From Aureimonas sp. Leaf324 (lineage in GTDB: Bacteria > Pseudomonadota > Alphaproteobacteria > Rhizobiales > Rhizobiaceae), in assembly GCF_001423245.1 (NCBI RefSeq), contig NZ_LMOH01000012.1, forward strand, positions 373,970 through 437,969: 64,000 nucleotides of DNA, given 5' to 3'. Shown here piece by piece: positions 39,044 through 46,239 of the stretch. The position numbers and the translations under genes were made by a program. How positions within the stretch are numbered: the stretch's first letter is position 1; every line of letters starts with the position of its first letter. The notes under the pieces are model-generated. The model saw only the letters and a list, made by a program, of their open reading frames with translations, made no database searches and was not told the origin of the DNA.

Positions 39044-39805
39044 TTACAGCAGCCGGTAGTGCGCGGCCCGCGCGATCATCTGGGCCCGGTTGCGCGCGCC
39101 GAGCTTTCGGGCGGCGGCGTTCAGATGCATCGTGACGGTCGGCACCGAGCGCGACAGGCGACCGGAAATGTCCTTCGCCGACAGGCCCTCGGCGGAAAAG
39201 CGCAGGCATTCGCGCTCGCGCGGCGTCAGGTGTACCGCGCGCGAGCGCCGCTCGGCCTCGCCGAACAGCGGCTCCACCGCGGCATGGACCGCGTGGGCGA
39301 GGAGCGTGAAGTCGCCCAGAAGCTCGGCGCCCTCGCGGTGGAAGTCGTCCTCCGCCCCGTAGCGGATGCCGGTCACCGTCGCGCAGTCGCCCGACCGCCC
39401 ATGGATCGGAACCGTCATGCCGCAGGTGATCGCCATGTCGTGGACATAGGTGACGACCGGTTCGTGCCGCTCGTCGAGCGCCCGGTTGAGCACCGTCTGA
39501 CCGTTCCGGCGGTAGCTCCACACGAACGGTCGCGGATTATTCAGCGCCAGATGCTGCACCGGATCGATCTGGTAGAAGCCGCTCGACGACCAGAGGTCGA
39601 CCATGTCGCCCGGCACTTCGCGCATGCCGAAGAACGACGGGGTGATGAGTTCGCCCTCGTGCGTGTAGGCGACCGGCGCGTAGTCGTAGATCAGGGCGCC
39701 GAGCCCCAGCGCCGCCATCGCACCGTGGGCGATGTCGAGCCGTCCGCCGATCGTGGGCGCTGCGTCGAGCGCTGCCTCGAGCTCCAGGGCATTCAAGACC
39801 GTCAC
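39044..39805 (-). CDS. LuxR solo of the plant-responsive OryR/PipR type
   Basis: A 253-residue regulator with an N-terminal autoinducer-binding domain and C-terminal HTH (LTPRERECLRFSAEGLSAKD then ISGRLSRSVPTVTMHLNAAARKL). Aligning by spacing with TraR, the ligand positions Trp57 and Tyr61 are Met68 and Trp72 here (PGDMVDLW), while Asp70 and Trp85 are kept as Asp81 and Trp96. This Met/Trp pair defines LuxR solos of plant-associated bacteria (OryR, XccR, PsoR, NesR, PipR), which answer plant compounds rather than acyl-homoserine lactones. No luxI is nearby. It faces a proline iminopeptidase gene, as in those species. The start is GTG 39805. Confidence 0.9.
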   Translation of the reverse strand: MTVLNALELEAALDAAPTIGGRLDIAHGAMAALGLGALIYDYAPVAYTHEGELITPSFFGMREVPGDMVDLWSSSGFYQIDPVQHLALNNPRPFVWSYRRNGQTVLNRALDERHEPVVTYVHDMAITCGMTVPIHGRSGDCATVTGIRYGAEDDFHREGAELLGDFTLLAHAVHAAVEPLFGEAERRSRAVHLTPRERECLRFSAEGLSAKDISGRLSRSVPTVTMHLNAAARKLGARNRAQMIARAAHYRLL

Positions 39806-39821
39806 GGGCGCATCCGGCTGC

Positions 39822-39841
39822 TGAACATTGAGGCATGTTCA
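39822..39841. promoter_or_regulatory. lux-box-like 20-bp inverted repeat between luxR and pip
   Basis: TGAACAT (39822-39828) and ATGTTCA (39835-39841) with a 6-bp spacer make a perfect 20-bp dyad, the length of a lux box. It lies 17 bp before the luxR start and about 120 bp before the iminopeptidase start, so one dimer could control both. The bases differ from the classical lux consensus. Confidence 0.65.
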
Positions 39842-43685: not shown

Positions 43686-44743
43686 CCCAGCCCGACATCA
43701 TCCTTGAAGCCGACGATGTCGTCGTTCGTTTTCCCGGTCCCGGCGCGGGCTTCCTCGGCCTGCAGCGGCGCAGCGTCCAGGCGGTGAACGGCGTCTCGCT
43801 TCAGGTCCGGCGCGGCGAGACGATCGGGATCGTCGGAGAATCGGGATCGGGCAAGTCGACGCTCGGACGCGCGCTTCTCGGCCTCGAGCCGATCTCGGGC
43901 GGTCACGTCGTGCTCGACGGACTGGCGGTCTCGGACGGCCGGCGGGCCGACCTGAAGGCGCTGCGCCGACGCACCGCCATGGTGTTTCAGGACCCCGCGA
44001 ACTCGCTCAACCCGCGCCTCACCGTCGGCGAGACGCTGGCCGAAGTCCTGCGCGTCCACGGCAAGGCGCCGCGCGGCGGAACGGATCCCCGCGTCGCCGA
44101 GCTTCTGCGGATGGTCGGCCTCGATACGGCGCTGGCCGGCCGGCGTCCGGCCGCGCTCTCCGGCGGCCAGTGCCAGCGCGTCGGCATCGCGCGGGCGCTG
44201 GCGGTCGAGCCCAGCCTCGTCATCGCCGACGAATGCGTCGCCGCGCTCGACGTCTCGATCCAGGGGCAGGTGATCAACCTCTTCCTCGATCTCAAGGAGC
44301 GGATCGGCCTGACGCTGATCTTCATCGCGCATGATCTCGCCATCGTCCGCCGGCTCTGCGACCGGGTGGCGGTGATGTATCTCGGCCGGATCGTCGAGGA
44401 GGGGCCGACCGAGAGCGTGTTTCGCGCGCCGCGCCATCCCTACACGGCGGCCCTCATCGCCTCGATCCCCGAGATCGACCCCGACATCGCGCTGCCGCTG
44501 GCGCCGATGGGCGGCGAGCCGCCAAGCCCGCTCGATCCCCCGCCCGGCTGTCCGTTCCATCCGCGCTGCACCCATGCCGAGGATCGCTGCCGCACCGGCC
44601 CGCCGCCCGCCCTGCGCCGCGCCGAAGACCACGGCTGGGCCTGCATCCTCGAGCCCGGCGCGCTTCCCGCGCCGGTCCGCGAACCGCCGATCTCCCCTCC
44701 CCCTATGATACGCGAGGCTTTCCCATGTCCCGACCCCGCATGA
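43682..44743 (+). CDS. Peptide ABC transporter ATPase (DppF-like), pip operon
   Basis: A 353-residue second ATPase: Walker [10 protein letters not shown]-loop VFQDPANSLNPR, signature SGGQCQRVG and Walker B VIADECVAALD. The usual DEP-V-SALD is DECVAALD here; the catalytic Glu is kept. The C-terminal CPFHPRCTHAEDRC cluster motif is present. The last 19 bases overlap the start of the binding-protein gene, and the final 30 residues are proline-rich and unusual. Confidence 0.91.
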   Translation: MTQPDIILEADDVVVRFPGPGAGFLGLQRRSVQAVNGVSLQVRRGETIGIVGESGSGKSTLGRALLGLEPISGGHVVLDGLAVSDGRRADLKALRRRTAMVFQDPANSLNPRLTVGETLAEVLRVHGKAPRGGTDPRVAELLRMVGLDTALAGRRPAALSGGQCQRVGIARALAVEPSLVIADECVAALDVSIQGQVINLFLDLKERIGLTLIFIAHDLAIVRRLCDRVAVMYLGRIVEEGPTESVFRAPRHPYTAALIASIPEIDPDIALPLAPMGGEPPSPLDPPPGCPFHPRCTHAEDRCRTGPPPALRRAEDHGWACILEPGALPAPVREPPISPPPMIREAFPCPDPA

Positions 44744-46239
44744 CCCGCCTTCTGGCCGCAACGGCGCTCGCCGCCCTGTCGCTCACCGCCTCGATCGCGG
44801 AAGCCGCCGGCGTCCTCACGATCGGACGGCGCGAGGATTCCACGACCTTCGACCCGATCGCCTCGGCCCAGAACGTCGACAACTGGGTCTATTCCAACGT
44901 CTTCGACGTGCTCGTGCGCGTCGACAAGACCGGCACCAAGCTGGAGCCCGGCCTTGCGGAAAGCTGGACCGTCTCGGACGACAAGCTGACCTACACGTTC
45001 AAGCTGCGCGAGGCGAAGTTCTCGGACGGCTCGCCCGTCACCGCCGAGGACGCGGCCTTCTCGCTCCTGCGCATCCGTGACGATCCGACCTCGCTCTGGT
45101 CGTCGAGCTACGCGATCGTCGACACGGCGACGGCCAGCGACCCGCGCACGCTCGTCGTCAAGCTGAAGGAGCCCTCGGTTCCCTTCCTCGCCTCGCTGGC
45201 GCTGCCCAACGTCTCGGTCCTGCCGAAGGCGGTGGTGGAGGCCAAGGGCGAGGAGTTCGCGTCCGCGCCGATCGGGTCCGGCGCCTTCTCGGTCAAGGAG
45301 TGGGCCCGCGGCGACCGCGTGATCCTCGAGAAGAACCCGAACTACTGGGAGGCCGACAAGGTCAGCCTCGACGGCGTCGAGTGGATCTCGGTGCCCGACG
45401 ACAACACGCGCATGCTGAACGTGCAGGCGGGACAGCTCGACGCGGCGATTTTCGTGCCCTTCTCGCGCGTCGAGCAGCTGAAGCAGGACCCGCAGCTCAA
45501 GGTCTCGCTCGACACCTCGACCCGCGAGGACGCGCTGCTCATCAATCACGAGAAGGGCAAGCTCGGCGAGATCGCGGTGCGCCAAGCGCTGGACATGGCG
45601 ATCGACAAGCAGGCGATCGTCGATGCCGTCACCTTCGGCATCGGCGAGGTCGCCAACTCCTACATCCCGAAGGGCGCGCTGTACTATTACGCCGACAACC
45701 TGCGCCGTCCCTACGATCCGGAGCGCGCCAAGGCGATGCTGGCGGAAGCGGGCGCTTCCGACCTTGCCCTCGACTACAACGTCAAGGCCGGCGACGAGGT
45801 GGACGAGCAGATCGCCGTCCTGATGCAGCAGCAGCTTTCCAAGGCGGGGGTCACCGTCAACATCAACAAGGTCGATGCCGCCTCGCAGTGGGACATGTTC
45901 ATCAACGGCGATTTCGACGTCGCCGTCGGCTACTGGACCAATGACGTCCTCGACCCCGATCAGAAGACCACCTTCGTGCTCGGCCACGACACGAACATGA
46001 ACTACATGACGCGCTACAAGAACGACATGGTGAAGGACCTCGTCGCCAAGGCGCGCACCGAAGCCGACCCCGCCAAGCGCGAGGCGATGTATGTCGAGCT
46101 GCAGAAGATCGCCAAGGAGGAGGTCAATTGGATCGACCTCTACTACAGCCCCTACATCAACGTGACGCGCGCCAATATCGACGGCTTCTACCAGAACCCG
46201 CTCGGCCGCTTCTGGCTGGAGGACGTGCGCAAGAACTGA
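44725..46239 (+). CDS. Peptide ABC transporter periplasmic binding protein (SBP family 5), pip operon
   Basis: A 504-residue binding protein with a signal peptide (RLLAATALAALSLTASIAEA) and SBP_bac_5 core (RREDSTTFDPIASAQNVDNW, KFSDGSPVTAEDAAFSLLRI, AVRQALDMAIDKQAIVDAV). Unusually for such operons the binding-protein gene is last, overlapping the ATPase gene by 19 bp. In Pseudomonas the transporter next to pipR takes up the plant-type inducer; this protein may do the same. Confidence 0.92.
   Translation: MSRPRMTRLLAATALAALSLTASIAEAAGVLTIGRREDSTTFDPIASAQNVDNWVYSNVFDVLVRVDKTGTKLEPGLAESWTVSDDKLTYTFKLREAKFSDGSPVTAEDAAFSLLRIRDDPTSLWSSSYAIVDTATASDPRTLVVKLKEPSVPFLASLALPNVSVLPKAVVEAKGEEFASAPIGSGAFSVKEWARGDRVILEKNPNYWEADKVSLDGVEWISVPDDNTRMLNVQAGQLDAAIFVPFSRVEQLKQDPQLKVSLDTSTREDALLINHEKGKLGEIAVRQALDMAIDKQAIVDAVTFGIGEVANSYIPKGALYYYADNLRRPYDPERAKAMLAEAGASDLALDYNVKAGDEVDEQIAVLMQQQLSKAGVTVNINKVDAASQWDMFINGDFDVAVGYWTNDVLDPDQKTTFVLGHDTNMNYMTRYKNDMVKDLVAKARTEADPAKREAMYVELQKIAKEEVNWIDLYYSPYINVTRANIDGFYQNPLGRFWLEDVRKN

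Follow-up and report, generated by a model that had tools for sequence, protein, structure and literature searches.

A trimmed Pip-type locus with a LuxR solo, a peptide importer and a single predicted operator in Aureimonas sp. Leaf324

The locus and its genes

The DNA analysed here (the window) is a stretch of 64,000 nucleotides from Aureimonas sp. Leaf324 (NCBI RefSeq assembly GCF_001423245.1, contig NZ_LMOH01000012.1, positions 373,970-437,969 of the forward strand), from a genome of 4.4 Mb in 30 contigs that is 99.93% complete. Unless stated otherwise, coordinates are window positions. The subject is a block at 39044-46239, in which the gene of a LuxR solo lies divergent from a peptidase gene and a complete ATP-binding cassette (ABC) peptide importer, with a predicted operator between them. 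The gene set is assigned to the Pip/Aap system described in Pseudomonas sp. GM79 (PipR, AapA-F and PipA), and the locus is classed as a trimmed version, in which one of the two usual peptidases is retained. Literature on LuxR solos of plant-associated bacteria (PAB) was drawn on as extracts of PMC10134790, PMC7301841, PMC3909224, PMC4471428, PMC4338825 and PMC4981722, and reported facts refer to those extracts.

The luxR gene (39044-39805, minus strand) encodes a protein with Autoind_bind (E 1.3e-21) and GerE Pfam domains, placed in the PipR/OryR/NesR subfamily from its alignment, tree position and pocket residues. On the plus strand, the importer operon starts with a predicted S33-family aminopeptidase of AapA type carrying an NGGPG motif (39962-40882; TIGR01250 270 bits, cut-off 167.65). 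It is followed by permeases in the AapB place (40892-41830; BPD_transp_1) and the AapC place (41827-42687; BPD_transp_1 and OppC_N) and by two ATPases (42684-43685 and 43682-44743; ABC_tran and oligo_HPY in each), synteny agreeing with the domains for all four genes, and it ends with a substrate-binding protein (44725-46239; SBP_bac_5). The binding protein is a relative of AapF, whose structures (PDB 7kz8/7kz9) were matched with E 5e-219, 322 of 480 alignment columns being identical (67%).

An earlier sequence-only reading had described this block as a PipR/OryR-type locus. Its genes and domains were confirmed, as was the orientation of luxR away from the hydrolase and the complete importer. 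The PAB-type solo and the Pip/Aap gene set stood; the identity of the peptidase as pip, the treatment of the NGGPG motif and the gene order as local traits, and a pocket hallmark shared with PipR did not.

The survey of relatives for the same gene order, which that reading had proposed, was performed on 80 named loci. These were the best 80 of 312 LuxR relatives, a non-random choice, so that counts on them are valid for near relatives. The importer genes adjoined luxR in 79/80 loci, the exception (L086) running into a contig end, and the adjacency of luxR and importer is more than chance. The binding-protein gene, whose place at the end of the operon had been taken for a local difference, was last, beyond the ATPase genes, in 78/80 loci; the remaining two (L075 and L086) were cut by contig ends. 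This order is not universal: Nitratireductor sp. OM-1 (L191, plasmid pOM-1; LuxR 44% identical) has its binding-protein gene between permease and ATPase genes. The OM-1 locus encodes a PAB-type LuxR with the Met/Trp pair, with pip-family and carbon-nitrogen hydrolase genes upstream of luxR and the importer downstream in its different gene order, the whole set on one strand.

Pocket residues and phylogeny of the LuxR protein

Met68, Trp72, Asp81 and Trp96, the residues named in the sequence-only reading, were present in the window LuxR and invariant in 11 aligned orthologues (window included). By alignment, Met68 and Trp72 occupy TraR positions 57 and 61, and the wider pocket signature is Met68/Trp72/Gln84/Val117/Val121. 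Gln84 corresponds to Gln at TraR 73, a reported PAB trait, and Val117 to Val at TraR 101, as placed by sequence alignment and not by structure. At TraR 105, likewise from the sequence alignment, the window has Val121, and Val was found in 13/14 Aurantimonadaceae rows vs Leu or Met in most other clade rows.

A maximum-likelihood tree was built from 62 rows, comprising the window, 39 named loci out of the 80, ten additional relatives and 12 outside rows. It lacked the type sequences of OryR, PsoR, NesR and PipR, and PsaR2 was represented by proteins of the Pseudomonas syringae group. The outside rows were TraR (NGR234), TraR (A. fabrum), E. coli SdiA, a QscR fragment, the LuxR of the same genome that is paired with luxI, the third LuxR of that genome, and six unnamed proteins, whose label as acyl-homoserine lactone (AHL) type is our own. 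The window LuxR fell inside a 50-row PAB clade (support 100/99) that excluded all 12 outside rows and held proteins of Rhizobium, Phyllobacterium, Pseudomonas, Rahnella, Roseibium and others; the 14 Aurantimonadaceae rows formed a single clade (100/93). Two unnamed outside rows (L073 and L074) branched adjacent to the PAB clade, and relations among the outside rows are unsure because of long branches, of which the program warned. Placement with AHL receptors, which the sequence-only reading had named as the outcome against it, did not occur, and an AHL-receptor identity was rejected on the tree placement. The window LuxR is accordingly described as a predicted PAB-type solo (class D, subgroup 0). 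Its closest named relatives were from an uncultured Aureimonas metagenome-assembled genome (98%) and Aureimonas phyllosphaerae (96%).

The position of TraR 61 was Trp in 50/50 clade rows. At TraR 57 the clade had Met in 39 rows, Trp in 10 and Phe in one (A. glaciei, L083); the ten Trp57 rows were nine named Pseudomonas proteins and an unnamed row grouping with P. fuscovaginae. Among the 12 outside rows, eight had Trp/Tyr at 57/61, the third LuxR of the genome Phe/Phe, L074 Trp/Trp and L029 Tyr/Tyr, with a gap in L014. The Met/Trp pair had been offered as the hallmark of PAB solos in general: it holds as the pattern of OryR and NesR, but PipR retains Trp57 (PMC4981722).

Three Autoind_bind proteins scored above the cut-off in the genome. 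The remark that no luxI was in view is right for the window, but the genome has one luxI-type match, on another contig (C13:12473-12889, 36.1 bits vs a cut-off of 24), which begins 75 bp past a different luxR with Trp57/Tyr61. As the only luxI adjoins its own luxR, the window LuxR is a solo. The luxR/luxI pair spans G000:C13:11540-13192 (L004 568-2220) on a 26-kb contig, and the luxI match is modest: within a frame of 284 aa it spans positions 37-180 of the 183-position profile.

The predicted operator

The gap between luxR and aapA was aligned for 13 Aurantimonadaceae loci, window included, and contained a near-constant dyad with the consensus AGCTATCA-N4-TGATAGG. In the window, the predicted operator of the LuxR solo is the imperfect dyad CCTATAAGTTTTGATAGCT (plus strand, 39880-39898, centre 39889), one arm of which departs from symmetry; it was identified by conservation in the 13 loci, by profile and by an exact-match scan. 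Upstream of both genes, its centre is 73 bp from the peptidase ATG and 84 bp from the luxR start; the GM79 inverted repeats are reported as centred 71.5 bp before pipA and 91.5 bp before aapA (PMC4981722).

A profile was built from the 13 sites and used at a threshold of 13 bits or more. Since the window site is among them, the window gives no independent support for the operator. The profile was applied to 68 held-out named loci, three from the same family (L085, L086 and L087) and 65 from outside it, many of them close Rhizobium kin of one another. A site was found upstream of luxR in 67/68, and a second site in the luxR-pipA gap in 58/64 loci having a PipA-type gene; the background was 22 matches in 1,288,353 other bases. 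A second operator was not found in the window, and no relict of a pipA operator was seen by eye in the 63-base 3' flanks after the luxR stop in the window and 15 named Aurantimonadaceae loci.

When the whole genome was scanned, the exact operator pattern occurred once, at the window site, and places with up to two mismatches numbered 14 (one exact and 13 others) vs 24 for the reversed control. On these counts the predicted regulon is local and no further targets are claimed.

The first operator candidate was another palindrome just upstream of the luxR start, TGAACATN6ATGTTCA (39822-39841, perfect 7+6+7). It was perfect in the window, L075 and L076, retained 13/14 arm bases in L077 and L089 and was not conserved in more distant loci; this restriction to the nearest relatives led to its demotion as an operator.

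AapA-type peptidase retained, PipA-type peptidase absent

Peptidases of the relatives were searched with phmmer (E 1e-20), weaker or cut genes (as in L147) being uncounted, and two kinds were found. The first had the NGGPG motif in 84/84 proteins (eight of them from genomes fetched twice), headed the importer operon and scored above 300 bits against the window protein. The second had HGGPG in 68/68 proteins (one from a genome fetched twice), scored below 300 bits and followed luxR on the same strand in the 64 of 80 named loci having it. Judged by motif and operon place, the NGGPG kind corresponds to GM79 AapA and the HGGPG kind to PipA; beyond AapF, GM79 was compared by description, motif and place. 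The NGGPG motif is thus a trait of the AapA type and not local to this DNA. Of the name proline iminopeptidase there remains that a TIGR01250-family hydrolase adjoins luxR, but it is assigned to the AapA type and not to PipA. In GM79, AapA is reported to cleave an alanine substrate far better than a proline one, and PipA to favour proline slightly over alanine (PMC4981722).

At the GM79 position downstream of luxR, the window has a TauE gene and no PipA gene. No HGGPG gene was found in the 15 named Aurantimonadaceae loci within the stretches examined, which for L080 reached less than 400 bases beyond luxR. Searched with a PipA-type protein, this genome and six further ones of Aureimonas gave the AapA-type gene itself as best match (38-40%), and the next-best matches had E 6.5e-9 or weaker; PipA is therefore considered absent from this nearly complete genome. 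The trimming is reversed in nine named Pseudomonas loci, where the HGGPG type is the one retained and the AapA type is missing. Two tandem NGGPG genes of AapA type were seen at the head of the importer operon in L082, L084, L085, L129 and L058.

Distribution and a second form in Aureimonas

A close LuxR was present in 9/21 sampled Aureimonas genomes and in 2/384 other genomes of the class sample; in the phylum sample, matches to the alignment with E at or below 1e-30 came from 11/397 other genomes. Relatives were also found in plasmid records, most of them from Rhizobium, and no encoded LuxR relative was found in viral contigs. The alphaproteobacterial host, which had been presented as notable, is ordinary: NesR and many Rhizobium loci are already alphaproteobacterial. 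Aureimonas is listed among the genera of the PAB solo subgroup, with NesR as an alphaproteobacterial member (PMC10134790), and an Aurantimonas solo is reported to cluster with other alphaproteobacterial solos (PMC4338825). A literature search on Aureimonas and LuxR solos returned PMC10134790 alone. Membership of Aureimonas in the subgroup was thus known already, and the locus is a further member with a trimmed architecture.

Seven of the nine Aureimonas genomes with a close LuxR, the window's among them, had the form made of LuxR, AapA and importer (in G002 the importer is interrupted by a contig edge). In G019 and G012 (LuxR 51-52% identical), luxR was flanked by a PipA-type gene (64-65%) and by a different importer (binding protein 25% identical). 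The dyad lay at the luxR 3' end before this importer, with scores of 24.6 and 28.7, and a weaker dyad place preceded the PipA-type gene (15.2 and 10.4). We tentatively suggest, with somewhat less than even confidence, that the Aureimonas Pip circuit behaves as a constant pair of regulator and operator to which different effector parts can be joined, and that the two forms could sense different ligands by the same logic. In the two other Aureimonas genomes with a non-orthologous peptide importer, the dyad that precedes it lies at L055 9474-9492 and L056 10024-10042; the PipA type is kept there and the AapA type is lacking.

Two observations concern the genes flanking the block. At 34579-38218 a fused GsiA-like ATPase gene accompanies a gamma-glutamyltransferase-like gene (TIGR00066 276 bits, short of the cut-off, 357.85), a pair that resembles a glutathione or gamma-glutamyl peptide importer and that among the named loci was found beside luxR only in A. 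phyllosphaerae (L076). After the binding-protein gene, a GntR/FCD regulator is encoded at 46333-47244; an 80% relative lies on the luxR side in Aureimonas AU22 (L077), as if the block were inverted.

Proposed mechanism and alternative explanations

The locus is best read as a Pip-type sense-and-import switch, and we hold this reading with good confidence. The AapF-like binding protein and the ABC importer would take up a small amide or peptide-like molecule, which, itself or as a product, would be bound by the LuxR solo. The liganded LuxR would then bind the single dyad between the divergent genes and activate the aapA-importer operon, possibly also its own gene, and AapA would trim or destroy the ligand and so close the loop. 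The switch probably senses an imported small molecule, perhaps of plant origin. The scheme draws on the gene set, the relation to AapF, the pocket signature, the conservation of the operator and the absence of PipA, all taken from the sequences. By analogy with GM79, import would be needed for signalling and the peptidases would dampen the signal: an aapB mutant of that strain is reported to give no response to leaf macerate, peptone or the Ser-His-Ser (SHS) tripeptide, and peptidase mutants over-respond (PMC4981722).

Several observations weigh against the proposed switch. GM79 PipR is reported to control pipA strongly and aapA weakly (PMC4981722); with only the aapA promoter left here, it is less certain that a ligand would activate the operon. 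PsaR2 and PsrR are described as not inducing pip in response to plant extract under the tested conditions. A close homologue of the GM79 transporter protein from another species is reported not to bind N-(2-hydroxyethyl)-2-(2-hydroxyethylamino)acetamide (HEHEAA) (PMC10134790). The close LuxR is patchily distributed, both within the sampled Aureimonas genomes and across the class sample. Among the held-out loci, L119 had no upstream or second site at the threshold, and L109, L113, L115, L123 and L134 had no second site. Most of the further relatives scanned had one or two sites, the exceptions including L066 (3.7 kb scanned), which was without a site, and L191, in which no place exceeded the threshold.

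The strongest alternative is a general nutrition switch without a plant role, in which peptides or other amides of whatever origin would be sensed by LuxR, with induction of their importer and a peptidase as the whole response. It fits the reported response of GM79 PipR to peptone and the SHS tripeptide as well (PMC4981722), the single exact operator, which confines the predicted regulon to the importer operon itself, and the presence of Roseibium marinum and Jiella among the relatives. On the other side, the nearest named relative is A. phyllosphaerae and others bear names such as jatrophae, endophytica or Leaf427 (judged by names only), and according to a review the members of the subgroup are plant or terrestrial isolates (PMC10134790). 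We regard this alternative as a real possibility that is rather less than evenly probable. The claim that the locus points to plant association is, with R. marinum among the relatives, plausible at most.

It is unlikely that the locus is a decaying remnant, with the circuit silent after loss of pipA and the importer constitutive. The missing PipA-type gene and second operator, and the retention of the close LuxR in only 9/21 sampled Aureimonas genomes, would suit such decay; against it, the genes have open reading frames, all 11 aligned orthologues share the two hallmark pocket residues, and conservation of the remaining operator extends throughout the family. An AHL receptor, either an eavesdropping solo or a second receptor for the LuxI of the same genome, would agree with the presence of luxI and with the fold family common to both, but is very improbable given Met/Trp at TraR 57/61 and Gln at 73, the separate clade (100/99), the Trp/Tyr LuxR adjacent to luxI, and the extracts on PipR and OryR, in which AHLs are reported not to activate through either.

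Under the proposed sense-and-import switch, the locus would be a naturally occurring variant whose single peptidase, operator and importer make it a simpler system for ligand finding. Two other Aureimonas species, with their swapped importer, offer a natural way to test if ligand choice is determined by the importer, and the operator profile allows alpha- and gammaproteobacterial sequences to be tested for Pip circuits.

Comparison with known systems

The PipR/AapA-F/PipA system of Pseudomonas sp. GM79 resembles the window in the LuxR solo beside an aapA-importer operon, the inverted repeat in the promoter and the binding protein, whose identity with AapF is 67% across 480 alignment columns. 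It differs in that the window is without PipA, that no second operator was found there, and that Met replaces Trp at TraR 57.

The PsaR2-type loci of the P. syringae group share a PAB solo and the same importer genes, but the nine named Pseudomonas loci are trimmed the reverse way, with HGGPG kept and the AapA type missing. OryR and XccR of Xanthomonas, compared by description, share the Met/Trp pocket pair as reported (PMC10134790, PMC4981722). The sources differ on linkage to an importer in Xanthomonas: PMC4981722 states that no ABC importer is linked there, and Table 1 of PMC10134790 lists a peptide transporter.

NesR of Sinorhizobium meliloti, compared by description, and its Rhizobium homologues are alphaproteobacterial like the window LuxR, share the Met/Trp signature (as seen in the Rhizobium rows of the tree) and are accompanied by pip and a peptide transporter (PMC10134790). 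In contrast to the window, both peptidases are retained in the named Rhizobium loci, of which L147 runs into a contig end, and most of these loci have two operators.

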